Source of the DNA: Paludibacteraceae bacterium | GTDB taxonomy: Bacteria; Bacteroidota; Bacteroidia; Bacteroidales; Paludibacteraceae | Reading direction: 5' to 3' | Assembly: GCA_017546705.1 (NCBI GenBank) | Contig: JAFYSB010000023.1 | Span: 1 to 52,666, forward strand | DNA: 52,666 nt | Shown: positions 10,038 through 46,607 of the stretch, one piece after another | Layout of the letters: each line of letters opens with the position of its first letter | Numbering within the stretch: the stretch's first letter is position 1 | Notes under the pieces: model-generated | What the model saw: only the letters and a program-made list of their open reading frames with translations | Told to the model about the DNA's origin: nothing | Database searches by the model: none | Program-made: the position numbers and the translations under genes

Positions 10038-10065
10038 AATTGGTATTATTTCTTATTTTGCGCTG

Positions 10066-10073
10066 CAAAGGTA
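10066..10073 (-). promoter_or_regulatory. -7 element of ATPase copy 1
   Basis: TACCTTTG followed by GCAGCG on the minus strand, 28 bases before the start. Confidence 0.65.
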
Positions 10074-10096
10074 CAAAAAAGAACTGACACTTGCAA

Positions 10097-10125
10097 CCAA
10101 ATCTCACATTTTTTTTGAGATTTGG
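10097..10125. repeat. perfect 10-bp hairpin CCAAATCTCA/TGAGATTTGG
   Basis: Stem 10097-10106 and 10116-10125 around a T-rich loop, just upstream of the ATPase copy 1 promoter. A related stem CCAAATGT/ACATTTGG follows at 10160-10189, and the word CCAAATCTCAC plus T-run recurs near 13440. Operator or attenuator function is possible but unproven. Confidence 0.6.
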
Positions 10126-10210
10126 CTTAAAAACACATATTTTTTATTCAAACACTCAGCCAAATGTATGTATTTTATCACACATTTGGAGCAAGGTATT
10201 GTCTTTTTTC

Positions 10211-10242
10211 TTTCTTTTTCATGGAATTTCTCCCCCATTTTT
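10211..10242. repeat. 30-base element upstream of ATPase copy 1 (shared with 11928-11958)
   Basis: The core TCTTTTTCA(T/A)GGAATTTC followed by TCCCCCA recurs at 11928-11958. Each copy lies about 175-190 bases upstream of the start of one of the two DUF234 ATPase genes, in the same orientation. Confidence 0.65.
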
Positions 10243-11785: not shown

Positions 11786-11802
11786 GCATTACTATTGCGC
11801 TG

Positions 11803-11810
11803 CAAAAGTA
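11803..11810 (-). promoter_or_regulatory. -7 element of ATPase copy 2
   Basis: TACTTTTG followed by GCAGCG on the minus strand, 63 bases before the chosen start. Confidence 0.6.
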
Positions 11811-11927
11811 CAAAAAAAAACACATACAAACAAACATTTTGTTAAAAAATCACTTTTTATGCTAATTTTTCTGCAAATTTATTATATTCACTACTTATTT
11901 TCATTGAATATGTAAATAAACTTTCTC

Positions 11928-11958
11928 TTCTTTTTCAAGGAATTTCTCCCCCAATTTT
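11928..11958. repeat. 30-base element upstream of ATPase copy 2
   Basis: Second copy of the element at 10211-10242. The rest of 11811-12270 holds no gene I can support, only AT-rich DNA with inverted repeats. Confidence 0.65.
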
Positions 11959-38740: not shown

Positions 38741-38996
38741 CTACAAAAAAAGCAAATACGCAAGAAAAATTGCAAAAAAGTTTTATTTTAATGCGTTTTA
38801 TTGCATGTTTGCCACATAAAAAATAATAAAATCAGTCAAAAAAGGAATTGAAAAACTATCTCAGTATAAAATTAGGGTACGTGTGCTCGCGTGCGCGCGA
38901 GAAATCAAGCAAGTAAAATGTAAATTTATTCGCAAAATTGAGCAAAAAAACATCGACTTTGCCGATTGTTTTCTTGCTTAATTGAAAAAAATGTAC

Positions 38997-39004
38997 TACC
39001 TTTG
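38997..39004 (+). promoter_or_regulatory. -7 element of the YfhO-like gene
   Basis: TACCTTTG followed by CAGGC, 30 bases before the ATG at 39035; it lies inside and so excludes a longer reading frame from 38966. Confidence 0.7.
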
Positions 39005-39034
39005 CAGGCTGAAAATAACGTAAACAACGCACAG

Positions 39035-41626
39035 ATGAAAATAGACTGGAAGAAAATTCTGCCCTATGCCGTGGCAATCGTAGCATTTGTGGTGGTAGCA
39101 ATGATTTATTGTGCACCTCTGCTGGAAGGCAAAGTACTGGTGCAAGGTGATGTCAATAACTGGAAGGGGGCCGCACAAGAGGCACGTGCTTTTTACGATG
39201 AGCATGGTACACGCACATGGTGGACCAACTCTATGTTTGGCGGCATGCCCACCTACCAGATCACTGGTAGCCTGCCTTCAGGTGAAATGCGTAATGGTAT
39301 AGCGAAGGTTGCTCACCTTGGCATGGAAGGCGGATGGGAAGCTATAGGTATTATCTTTGCCTATTTCTTTGGATTCTTCCTCATGCTTCGTTGTTTCAAG
39401 GTAAATCCTTGGCTAAGTATCATTGGGGGGCTAGCCGTAGGGTTCTCCACATACTTCTTTTTGATTATCCCTGCAGGACACGTTACCAAAGCAGTAGCGT
39501 TGGGGTTCTTAGCACCTATGATAGGTGGTTTTTATGCTATTTTCCGCAAACAATATTGGCTAGGAGCACCGCTCGTAATGCTTTATGGTATTATGAGCAT
39601 TAACCTCCACCCACAAATGACTTACTATATCTTTATGCTGATAGGGGTATTGGCATGTGCCGAACTCTATATTCATATTAAGGATAAAGCATGGAAAGAT
39701 TTAGGCATATCGCTTGGCGTATTGGCGTTGAGTTTGCTACTGGTTGTGGGAACAAAGGCCAGTTGGTTAGAGATGAACCAATCCTATCTCAAAGAAACCA
39801 TGCGTGGTGGACATTCTGAATTAAGTCAGCCTACCCCCGACCCCTCCCTAAAGGGAAGGGAGAAATCTGCTGGTTTGGACCTGGATTATGCTACTGCTTG
39901 GAGTTATGGAGTGGATGAGACCATGACTTTCCTTATTCCTAACTGGGAAGGTGGAGCAAGCGGCTACAATGTAGGTGCGAAGTCAGACCTTTGTGAGACC
40001 ATGGTCAAGAATCGCGTGCCTAAACGTTCGGCAGAGCAGTTTTGTCAGCAAGTGCCTACCTATCGAGGAGAGAAGGCCTTTACTAGCGGTCCAGTATATA
40101 TAGGGGCGATTATCTGCTTCCTCTTTGTATTAGGCTTATTGATTGTACCTGGACCATATAAGTGGGCATTGCTCATAGCAACACTCTTCTCTGTGGCATT
40201 GGCATGGGGTAGAAACATGATGTGGTTGACGGAGTTATTTTTTAACTATTTCCCGATGTACAACAAGTTCCGTGCGGTGGAGAGTATCTTGGTTGTGGCA
40301 GAAATCACAATGCCATTGCTCGGAATCCTCGCATTGCAACAGATAGTGGATAAGAAGATTGCATGGGAGAAACTGCGTGTGAATATGTTTATAGCAGGCG
40401 GTGTCACTGCTGGATTGTGCCTTATCTTAGCTCTCTTTACTGGCATGGTGGATGTGACGAGCAGTTATGATGCACAATGGGTGAACCAAGTGCCTGCGTG
40501 GCTCAGAGATGCAATCTACGATGAGCGTGTAGCCATGATCAAAGCCGATGCTTGGCGTTCGTTTATCTTTATCGCATTGGGCTTTGCGGTGGTATATTTG
40601 TATGCTTGGAAATCTAATTCAGAGTCTCTAAACACTAAACACTCAACTCTAAACTATGTACTATATGCGGCCCTGGCAGCATTAGTACTAGCAGATATGC
40701 TACCTGTGAATAAGCGTTTCTTTGGTAGTGACCATTTTGTGAAGGCTAAAGATGCTGATGCGTATTTTGCGATGCAACCATACGAGCAACAGATTTTGGA
40801 GGACGAATCGTATTATCGCGTATTGAACTTGGCGACAAATACCTTTAATGATGCGCGTACAAGCTACCGACTGAAGTCCATCGGTGGTTATTCGGCGGCT
40901 AAACTGCGTCGTTATCAAGATTTGATAGACGAGCATATCTCAAAGGAGATGAACCCATTGATGCAAACGATTGTGCAAACACAAGGATTCTTGCAACCCG
41001 ATGCGAACGAAGGCAAGGATTTCCCTGTATTGAATATGCTCAATATGAAGTACGCTGTTGTACCTTTGCAAGGAGGCAAACAAGCACCAGTATATAACCC
41101 TTATGCGATGGGCAACTGTTGGTTTGTGGATGAGATAATGTTGGTGGATACACCAGACGAGGAGTGCGCAGCATTAAGCACTTTGGACTTGCATAAGCAA
41201 GCAGTAGCCGATAAGAAATTCGCTGAGGCATTGAATATTACCAAACCCGAGGTAACGCCTTTGATGGCTTTTGATGAGAGTAGTATAGAACTGACAAGTT
41301 ATGCGCCAAATTGTTTGCAATATGAATCCATGAACGAGCGCAATCAAGTGGCGGTATTCTCAGAGATTTACTATCCATATGATTGGCACTTGTATATCGT
41401 AAATGCGAATGGTGAGAGAGTAGAGTTGCCTTTGGCACGTGTAAACTACACCTTGCGTGCGGCGGTAATTCCTGCAGGTCATCATCAACTCGTGATGGAA
41501 TTCCGTCCACATGCTCTGCAAACAGATAAATGGTGTATGGCTATCTTGATTTTGGCATTGCTGCTTAGTGTAGGTGGTTTGACCTATCCTTTGTGGAAGA
41601 AAGCATCGCCTAAGTCCGAAGAATAA
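39035..41626 (+). CDS. YfhO-like multi-pass membrane protein
   Basis: 863 residues from MKIDWKKILPY. About twelve membrane segments in the first 560 residues and a last one near 835-855 surround a periplasmic C-terminal region. Blocks GKVLVQGDVNNWKGAAQEA near 31-49, WWTNSMFGGMPTYQ near 61-74 and HPQMTYYIFML near 190 are typical of Bacteroidales YfhO-like proteins, GT-C-type candidates for adding sugars to surface polymers. Two short insertions break the family pattern: QPTPDPSLKGREKS near 265-278 and SESLNTKHSTLN near 529-540, both encoded by genome repeat words. The stop overlaps the next start by one base (TAATG). Confidence 0.85.
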   Translation: MKIDWKKILPYAVAIVAFVVVAMIYCAPLLEGKVLVQGDVNNWKGAAQEARAFYDEHGTRTWWTNSMFGGMPTYQITGSLPSGEMRNGIAKVAHLGMEGGWEAIGIIFAYFFGFFLMLRCFKVNPWLSIIGGLAVGFSTYFFLIIPAGHVTKAVALGFLAPMIGGFYAIFRKQYWLGAPLVMLYGIMSINLHPQMTYYIFMLIGVLACAELYIHIKDKAWKDLGISLGVLALSLLLVVGTKASWLEMNQSYLKETMRGGHSELSQPTPDPSLKGREKSAGLDLDYATAWSYGVDETMTFLIPNWEGGASGYNVGAKSDLCETMVKNRVPKRSAEQFCQQVPTYRGEKAFTSGPVYIGAIICFLFVLGLLIVPGPYKWALLIATLFSVALAWGRNMMWLTELFFNYFPMYNKFRAVESILVVAEITMPLLGILALQQIVDKKIAWEKLRVNMFIAGGVTAGLCLILALFTGMVDVTSSYDAQWVNQVPAWLRDAIYDERVAMIKADAWRSFIFIALGFAVVYLYAWKSNSESLNTKHSTLNYVLYAALAALVLADMLPVNKRFFGSDHFVKAKDADAYFAMQPYEQQILEDESYYRVLNLATNTFNDARTSYRLKSIGGYSAAKLRRYQDLIDEHISKEMNPLMQTIVQTQGFLQPDANEGKDFPVLNMLNMKYAVVPLQGGKQAPVYNPYAMGNCWFVDEIMLVDTPDEECAALSTLDLHKQAVADKKFAEALNITKPEVTPLMAFDESSIELTSYAPNCLQYESMNERNQVAVFSEIYYPYDWHLYIVNANGERVELPLARVNYTLRAAVIPAGHHQLVMEFRPHALQTDKWCMAILILALLLSVGGLTYPLWKKASPKSEE
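39829..39862. repeat. 34-bp palindromic element, copy in the yfhO-like gene
   Basis: The core CCCCTCCCTAAAGGGAAGGG is an imperfect palindrome. The 34 bases match 46275-46308 at 31 positions. Here it is read as PTPDPSLKGRE in a loop of the membrane protein. Confidence 0.85.
40626..40655. repeat. CTCTAAAC/ACTAAACACTC word inside the yfhO-like gene
   Basis: CTCTAAACACTAAACACTC followed by AACTCTAAACT, related to the CTCTAAACT words in the vapE region. Read as SLNTKHSTLN between two membrane segments. Confidence 0.7.
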
Positions 41627-45884: not shown

Positions 45885-46607
45885 TTATATATCTTCTTTG
45901 AATGTTATTTTCTTGTTTTGTTCTTCGCCTTCAACAATGTAGATTGGCACCTGAGGCATATGCTTATGTACTATGCCGCAATCGTCGGTGGCTGGCAAAT
46001 GGCATGCAGAGCAAGCCTGTATATCGCAAATATCTGTTCCGAGTGCCTTGGCGTATGCCTCGGCTATTAGCTCCAAGCGGAAAGCTTGTGGTGTCTGCGC
46101 ACGCATGATAGTAGCGCGTTGTGGAATACGCGCGACTTTACCATCTGCCATCTCATACACCGTATCAGTACTTGGAATCGCTACAGTCACCGCCTCATGT
46201 TCTTCGAGCGCCTCGCACACACGAGCAATAATGTCTTGGCTGACAAATGGGCGAGCGGCATCGTGCAATAAAATGCCTACTCCCATCCCCTCCCTAAAGG
46301 GAAGGGAGTTGTCTTGGTTCATAATGGCACGAATTGCATTCACACTCGACTCCCAGCGCTCTTTGCCGCCAGGAATGATATAGCGCACTTTCTGCCATGC
46401 GTTAGCGAGAAGCATCTGTTCGGCATGCATGATATAATCAGGGTGCATAACAATGCAAATCTCATGAATATGAGGCGATTGCTCAAAGGCATTGACTGCA
46501 TGCTCCAAGACAGAATGTCCATCAGAGAGAGGGAGCAATTGCTTTGGAGTATTTCCTCCAACGCGGGCACCTATGCCTCCTGCTAATATGACTGCGATAT
46601 TTCTCAT
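45885..46607 (-). CDS. IspD/TarI-family cytidylyltransferase with repeat insertion
   Basis: 240 residues. N-terminal AVILAGGIGARVGGNTPKQLLPL (read in parts), HDAARPFV near 117, MRAQTPQAFRLE near 165, and a DDCGIV near 205. The C-terminal PIYIVEGEEQNKKITFKEDI favours TarI-like polyol-phosphate cytidylyltransferases of capsule loci, although housekeeping IspD (isoprenoid pathway) is not excluded. A 34-bp palindromic repeat is read as DNSLPFREGMGVG near residues 99-112, just before the conserved HDAARP motif. Second gene of the operon after kdsC. Confidence 0.82.
   Translation of the reverse strand: MRNIAVILAGGIGARVGGNTPKQLLPLSDGHSVLEHAVNAFEQSPHIHEICIVMHPDYIMHAEQMLLANAWQKVRYIIPGGKERWESSVNAIRAIMNQDNSLPFREGMGVGILLHDAARPFVSQDIIARVCEALEEHEAVTVAIPSTDTVYEMADGKVARIPQRATIMRAQTPQAFRLELIAEAYAKALGTDICDIQACSACHLPATDDCGIVHKHMPQVPIYIVEGEEQNKKITFKEDI
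46275..46308. repeat. 34-bp palindromic element, copy in the ispD-like gene
   Basis: Differs from 39829-39862 at three positions. It is read from the opposite strand relative to the yfhO-like copy, so the two insertions give different peptides (LPFREG against PSLKGRE). Confidence 0.85.

Follow-up and report, generated by a model that had tools for sequence, protein, structure and literature searches.

Rickettsia, a genus of obligate intracellular bacteria, and REP-carrying genomes provide the closest described systems to the repeat analysed here. Rickettsia palindromic elements, in the available part of their description, are about 150 bp long, fall into ten families, and nearly half of them lie in frame within unrelated open reading frames (ORFs) (PMC10969869). 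GTAG- and CGTC-tagged REPs are characterised, in the source text at hand, as stem-loops of 20-40 bp, some with imperfect stems, single or paired, mostly intergenic and sometimes located within genes; the GTAG repeats listed there belong to Proteobacteria, Cyanobacteria, Chloroflexi and the PVC group, while Bacteroidetes appear with CGTC repeats (PMC3733652). According to the accessible portion of a third source, TnpAREP/RAYT subclass 2.4 has REPs inside the transposase gene and the motif NH[IFV]H (PMC6006769). A 188 bp intergenic repeat of Prevotella (PMC4755523) and MITEs in Porphyromonas (PMC5771137) are unlike the element, as far as the excerpts of both papers describe them. None of the open-licence papers listed by a literature search described a coding palindrome from Bacteroidales.

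The element is present twice in the window, the whole stretch of 52,666 nucleotides that was analysed from a Paludibacteraceae genome (hereafter the source genome). Similar to Rickettsia palindromic elements as the excerpt presents them, it is a dispersed palindrome found in frame in unrelated ORFs and able to add a protein segment, and orthologues without the insert were identified (yfhO-like 29/29, ispD 28/29, aroC 29/29). Unlike those elements, likened here by description only, it is about 36 bp long, it occurs in gut Bacteroidales, and its translation uses at least four frames; the length of about 150 bp is not matched. The element is a new family of protein-coding palindrome, distinguished by the lack of detectable gene avoidance and by a purine-rich upstream side.

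Structure of the element

The two copies of the window (39829-39862 and 46275-46308) share 31 of 34 bases (91% identity), as the sequence-only reading had reported, and both are in frame and free of stops within their ORFs, on opposite strands (Table 1). That reading had described a 34-bp palindrome; the palindrome stands, in imperfect form, and the length does not, since the unit comprises 35-36 bases. A 19-base core is found at exactly two places in the window and was absent from 100 dinucleotide-preserving shuffles. The search model R1 was built from nine copies of the source genome, and both window copies, whose scores are given in Table 1, were rows in it.

Table 1. Element copies and host genes in the window
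Feature	Position	Strand	Evidence or reading
yfhO-like membrane protein gene, host of copy 1	38966..41626	+	ORF; orthologues; AlphaFold2 model
Palindromic element, copy 1	39828..39862	+	AGCCTACCCCCGACCCCTCCCTAAAGGGAAGGGAG; yfhO-like frame reads (Q)PTPDPSLKGRE; R1 model match 59.5 bits
ispD gene, host of copy 2	45885..46607	-	Pfam PF01128, E 6.5e-42; orthologues; AlphaFold2 model
Palindromic element, copy 2	46274..46308	+	TGCCTACTCCCATCCCCTCCCTAAAGGGAAGGGAG; minus-strand ispD reads SLPFREGMGVG; R1 model match 55.7 bits

The core consists of CCC-C-TCCC, a loop TAAA or TGAA, and GGGA-A-GGG; in the structure supplied to the R1 model it forms a hairpin with a 7-bp stem, a four-base loop and one C.A mismatch. 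Rfam gave no match above its thresholds at four loci. A census of the family comprised 164 matches in 129 loci, corresponding to 162 distinct copies after removal of two duplicate rows; it was drawn from the source genome and from the best-scoring part of the matches listed in a search of 61 genomes, and weak and old copies are under-sampled in it. The match spans exactly 35 bases in 142 of the 162 copies. The right part is TRAAAGGAGGGG in 22 of the 142 full-length copies, and there it pairs without the C.A mismatch. Standard pairs make up 96.5% of the pair cells among 57 distinct rows of alignment A4, which covers 70 of the 164 matches, and compensatory changes are few (four cells, in three of the seven pairs).

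CTAC, which is GTAG on the complementary strand, was found in 122 of the 142 full-length copies, separated from the stem, and is missing in the partner half. An inverted partner half near AAGTCCTTCCCTTTAGGGGAGGATTTAGGAGAGGCTT was present in 8/162 copies, at 7-19 bases downstream in seven and at 89 bases in one; four of the eight are in the source genome, in the genes for TruA, serine dehydratase, a DUF5675 protein and a VapE-like protein. Compared with a MITE bearing terminal inverted repeats, the inverted B half follows downstream in these eight copies of the 162. In REPs, GTAG is placed 5'. The GTAG of the element, in contrast, lies several bases off the stem and 3' of it on its own strand, and the inverted half lacks it. 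The occurrence of a short stem-loop in many copies is similar to GTAG REPs as the excerpted source portrays them, and GTAG on the complementary strand may be a further likeness.

Two copies, one in the source genome (L031:1501-1574) and one in genome G025 (L307:1492-1565), match over 74 bases and have an extra hairpin at the same place in the loop. By eye, the inner stems differ in sequence between the two and are self-complementary in each, and the copy of L307 lies in frame within coding sequence.

Host genes and insertion sites

The yfhO-like protein had no Pfam match at E<=0.001, and its name comes from the sequence-only reading; a match was present in 35 of the 37 genomes of the genus, the source genome included. 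Sharing of the inserted peptide by descent was looked for in 29 aligned orthologues, and none of them has the element, either in the alignment or in an R1 search, which revealed nothing credible at the site. The peptide PTPDPSLKGRE had been taken to interrupt a region conserved in the family, but the site is a length-variable linker flanked by two conserved blocks, MRGGHSEL and GLDxxYATxWS. This linker has 16 residues here, 14 and 19 residues of other sequence in the nearest relatives G014 and G025, and 9-12 in the other 27. In the AlphaFold2 model, with a mean pLDDT of only 75.9, residues ~264-275 belong to a mostly unstructured low-confidence stretch (~256-280) that follows a helix (219-254).

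For ispD, too, 35 of the 37 genomes of the genus gave a match, and the alignment comprised 29 orthologues. The insertion site is a loop of variable length directly before LHDxARP, and 28 of the 29 orthologues, those of G014 and G025 included, are without the element. In the ispD of G021, which is 60% identical, a divergent relative of the palindrome occupies the same loop in another frame (L116:1790-1822, 18.8 bits, E 0.0021), which could reflect an ancient insertion common to both genomes or a separate event in a loop that is prone to insertion. The proposal of two independent insertions agrees with the yfhO-like orthologues; for ispD, independence is not certain because of this related palindrome. 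In the ispD model, the 12 encoded residues (101-112) are placed between a helix (84-99) and a strand (110-116) and reach into the strand; the pLDDT of block 101-110 is 67, compared with a mean of 92.2.

G021 harbours a second divergent copy 0.9 kb from that in the ispD loop (L116:2687-2719, 17.1 bits). Short tandem repeats were seen by eye in the same ispD loop in seven of the 29 orthologues (L111, L112, L114, L118, L119, L122 and L129).

Besides IspD, the hosts in the source genome include AroC, TruA, a nitrilase family protein, the serine dehydratase alpha chain, an ABC-F-like protein, and DUF5675 and VapE-like proteins. The chorismate synthase gene aroC carries two copies. AroC was matched in 36 of 37 genomes; neither insert is present in the 29 aligned orthologues, and the best R1 score within AroC genes was 12.8 bits (E 0.1). 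At the first site, deleting 12 residues by eye restores the usual orthologue length, and the two best-matching solved chorismate synthases have gaps at both insert sites in the alignment. The same two AroC loops hold other short repeats in other genomes, for example LEAKGERLKAKGDEVKGE (G025), RISGLGDE units (G027) and PITNDQSPITN (G003), and AroC of G018 has SDQVTKDQG units in a neighbouring loop.

AroC orthologues with loop repeats were noted at L319, L321, L323, L327, L334 and L345, and throughout the genus the AroC and IspD loops are hotspots in which short repeats of many kinds occur. The AroC matches of G022 (L320) and G035 (L336) contain one in-frame stop codon each.

In a blastn comparison of 17 loci of the source genome with 48 loci of relatives, the matches were 37-75 bases long and confined to the surroundings of the repeat; shared sites emerged afterwards from protein comparison. 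The site in the ABC-F gene is common to the source genome and G025, and that in the serine dehydratase alpha-chain gene, by eye, to the source genome and a roe deer MAG.

Elsewhere in the window, two pairs of similar stretches (10058-10242 and 11795-11958; 79% and 94% identical, spacing about 1.7 kb) are located upstream of two ATPase-like genes.

Distribution of the family

The element had been proposed to be a dispersed palindromic repeat in unrelated genes, and many copies beyond the two in the window were found. The source genome has 41 R1 matches at E<=10, among which some hairpins are counted a second time through their mirror strand; in the 61-genome search it has 19 copies at E<=0.001. 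At the latter threshold, matches were present in 28 of the 61 genomes, corresponding to 27 of the 37 of the genus and one other. Copies per genus genome range from 0 to 69, with ten of the 37 having none at E<=0.001 and the highest counts in G022 (69), G036 (43), G006 (33) and G007 (32). In an order-wide sample, 6/295 genomes matched at E<=1e-5 (the source genome, one of the genus and four from other families) under stricter filters, with which the source genome was listed with 13 copies. One exact core pattern was detected in 47 stretches among named genomes; the carriers are Paludibacteraceae and other Bacteroidales MAGs, many of them ruminant or horse, as well as Candidatus Colicola caccequi and a Bacteroidaceae MAG. 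The element family is found in many species of gut Bacteroidales and reaches high copy numbers. A scan of viral contigs for one exact pattern found no copy.

Many of the 47 stretches belong to Prevotellamassilia timonensis An873 (L192-L236). Numerous contigs of this genome contain the core, in part tandemly repeated with a spacing of 41 bases and frequently close to contig ends.

Coding copies and reading frames

Coding state was called from a hexamer coding score over 150 bases per side, and not with a gene finder. Seventy-nine out of the 162 copies were coding in frame, 57 had one side coding and 17 neither; the remainder were on the same strand in different frames (five), on different strands (two) or in the same frame with a stop (two). 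The five copies with a different frame on each side were judged by eye to be gene junctions. The figure of 79 is a low count, because homology shows that several copies of the source genome scored as 'neither' or 'one side' are coding (both in aroC, and those in the nitrilase, DUF5675 and VapE-like genes). In-frame insertion in unrelated genes, first noticed in two of them, applies to 79 of 162 copies by this score, and AroC, TruA, IspD and others are hosts. These 79 copies represent 69 sites, of which 10 are common to two genomes each and 59 were seen in one sampled genome only; this sharing is a lower bound, as only part of the copies in all genomes was fetched.

Random positions in the same loci were coding in frame in 450 of 842 cases (261 one side, 102 neither, 29 other), and a difference from the copies in coding share was not detected (Fisher p 0.30; chi-square p 0.36), in a control that uses the same neighbourhoods and the same rough coding score and does not prove equality. 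The lack of detectable gene avoidance is the most unusual property of the element, because ordinary REPs are mainly intergenic in the available text of PMC3733652.

Of the six frames, counted over the 142 full-length copies, three are open in 140, 139 and 122, a fourth in 83, and the remaining two in 11 each. Frame use by the 79 coding copies is 31, 22, 13, 9, 2 and 2, the two rare frames each being open in 11/142, so that at least four frames are used. Common encoded peptides are PTPxPSLKGRE, SLPFREGxGVG, AYPxPLPEGKG and PSLQGGxGGRL. The insert-bearing proteins are assumed to be made and working, considering the open frames of conserved genes. The sequence-only reading had suggested a repeat adapted to coding sequence; the open frames and the lack of detectable gene avoidance fit this suggestion, but base composition together with the purging of harmful copies could also be their source.

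Flanking sequence

The ends of the element are well defined and its flanks are not conserved. The purine fraction upstream was 0.77 for copies coding on the same strand (n=46), 0.73 for copies coding on the opposite strand (n=33), 0.79 with one side coding (n=57) and 0.73 with neither (n=17), and the background at 40-70 bases upstream was 0.48-0.54 for these four classes with at least 17 copies. In the smaller classes (n=5, 2 and 2), the upstream values were 0.65, 0.62 and 0.69 versus 0.51, 0.40 and 0.62. The bias also holds for genes on the opposite strand, and therefore codon choice does not explain it. A purine-rich upstream side in coding and noncoding copies alike suggests oriented, target-selective insertion; alternatively, these purines may belong to the element itself, as a degenerate portion of it. 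Downstream, the purine fraction was 0.34 versus 0.51 in the 33 opposite-strand coding copies, for which we offer no explanation. An unsystematic look at the flanks noticed no target duplication.

Search for a mobiliser

The Pfam family Y1_Tnp (PF01797) had no match in the source genome and matches in 29/101 genus genomes. The absence of HUH/Y1 genes from the source genome was overturned by A6, a profile of a divergent Y1 family (eight rows, proteins mostly of 330-400 residues), which identified four places there; A6-type Y1 genes are present in 26 of 37 genus genomes. This family was tested as the mobiliser, and neither loci nor copy number gave a clear link to the element. Copy number showed no clear difference with the presence of A6-type Y1 genes (Mann-Whitney p 0.14; 37 genomes). 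No Y1 gene was detected in G036, which has 43 copies and a genome 73% complete, and six Y1-bearing genomes have no copy at E<=0.001 (G001, G009, G019, G020, G023 and G024). The element was found within about 0.6 kb of a Y1 gene in two out of the 20 loci read (L355 and L363). Unlike in GTAG REPs, no cognate RAYT flanked by the element was found among these loci.

At L355 (G000:C41:1200-7000), a divergent Y1 gene is surrounded by an array of ~42-base repeats, TTTGTCCATTANNCCCGNATNNNATNCGG, apparently carried in frame inside the gene too, and the gene resembles a RAYT that contains its own repeat. TTTGTCCATTANNCCCGNATNNNATNCGG is a different repeat family, with 33 places in the source genome (<=3 mismatches), over half of them on contig C41. 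A HUH/Y1 gene with arrayed copies of another repeat both within it and on its flanks is similar to RAYT subclass 2.4 as far as the excerpt on that subclass goes. However, the eight aligned divergent Y1 proteins have DHxH instead of NH[IFV]H, and none is tied to the 36-base element. The search for a linked transposase, proposed along with the first description, thus returned none linked to the element, and the Y1 locus that was fully read sits in the TTTGTCCATTANNCCCGNATNNNATNCGG array.

An inverted pair in G007, 2.6 kb apart (L140), was considered as a transposon and rejected, since the enclosed ORFs look ordinary by eye.

Origin and spread of the element

The element is probably a REP-like non-autonomous mobile palindrome, persisting in the manner of Rickettsia palindromic elements and moved by a HUH/Y1 enzyme in trans. 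Copies would arise by a copying process, most likely single-strand transposition, for which a HUH enzyme in trans would, by analogy, be the likeliest mobiliser, and would be placed in genes about as often as elsewhere. Because a full copy adds about 12 codons and is usually stop-free in three or four of the six frames, copies may survive in frame in tolerant surface loops, whereas copies causing a stop codon or a frameshift, or landing in the protein core, would be lost. Patchy copy number, insert-free orthologues, the share of in-frame copies and their use of the open frames, the oriented upstream purine bias and reduced-confidence host loops in the models are consistent with a mobile palindrome.

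Transposase-free spread from existing copies, through template switching or copying during repair and as part of a general tendency to gain short loop repeats, is possible though unlikely: it would accommodate the unrelated short repeats in the same AroC and ispD loops and the fact that no enzyme is linked to the element, but the defined ends, the non-conserved flanks and the oriented upstream purine preference exceed what random copying predicts. We consider it improbable that the encoded peptide or the RNA hairpin is selected for a function such as translation pausing or mRNA stability. The few compensatory changes in the hairpin and the ten coding sites that persist in two genomes each would agree with such a function; nonetheless, the element is translated on both strands and in no fewer than four frames, the resulting peptides are unrelated, as are the host genes, most coding sites belong to one sampled genome, and compensatory changes are also expected from a DNA hairpin needed in movement. 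Two further explanations of the window copies, ancient insertions inherited from a common ancestor and since lost in other lineages, or chance similarity of GC-rich loops, are highly improbable. The G021 palindrome and the sites shared in the ABC-F and serine dehydratase genes speak for descent, but 29 of 29 yfhO-like and 28 of 29 ispD orthologues lack the element, those of the two nearest relatives included, and the G021 form, which is read in another frame, is accompanied by a second copy nearby, as if it were a variant of the family in that genome. Against chance, none of the shuffles attained the match, and named genomes contain the core pattern repeatedly.

For a mobile palindrome, a more far-reaching proposal is that the element is shaped for coding life, by its ~12 codons, its three to four open frames, its purine targets and a burden so small that genes are not avoided at all, that exposed loops of conserved enzymes such as AroC and IspD are shared landing pads for unrelated repeats, and that such repeats are a main source of loop variation; we regard this proposal as doubtful.

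Biological meaning

The best-known protein-coding palindromes are those of Rickettsia and of some REP-rich genomes, and the same habit is described here in gut Bacteroidales. Since a loop insertion in one of these genomes may be a repeat, such insertions should be interpreted with caution. Comparison of sites with and without the insert makes it possible to study how proteins gain segments from mobile DNA.
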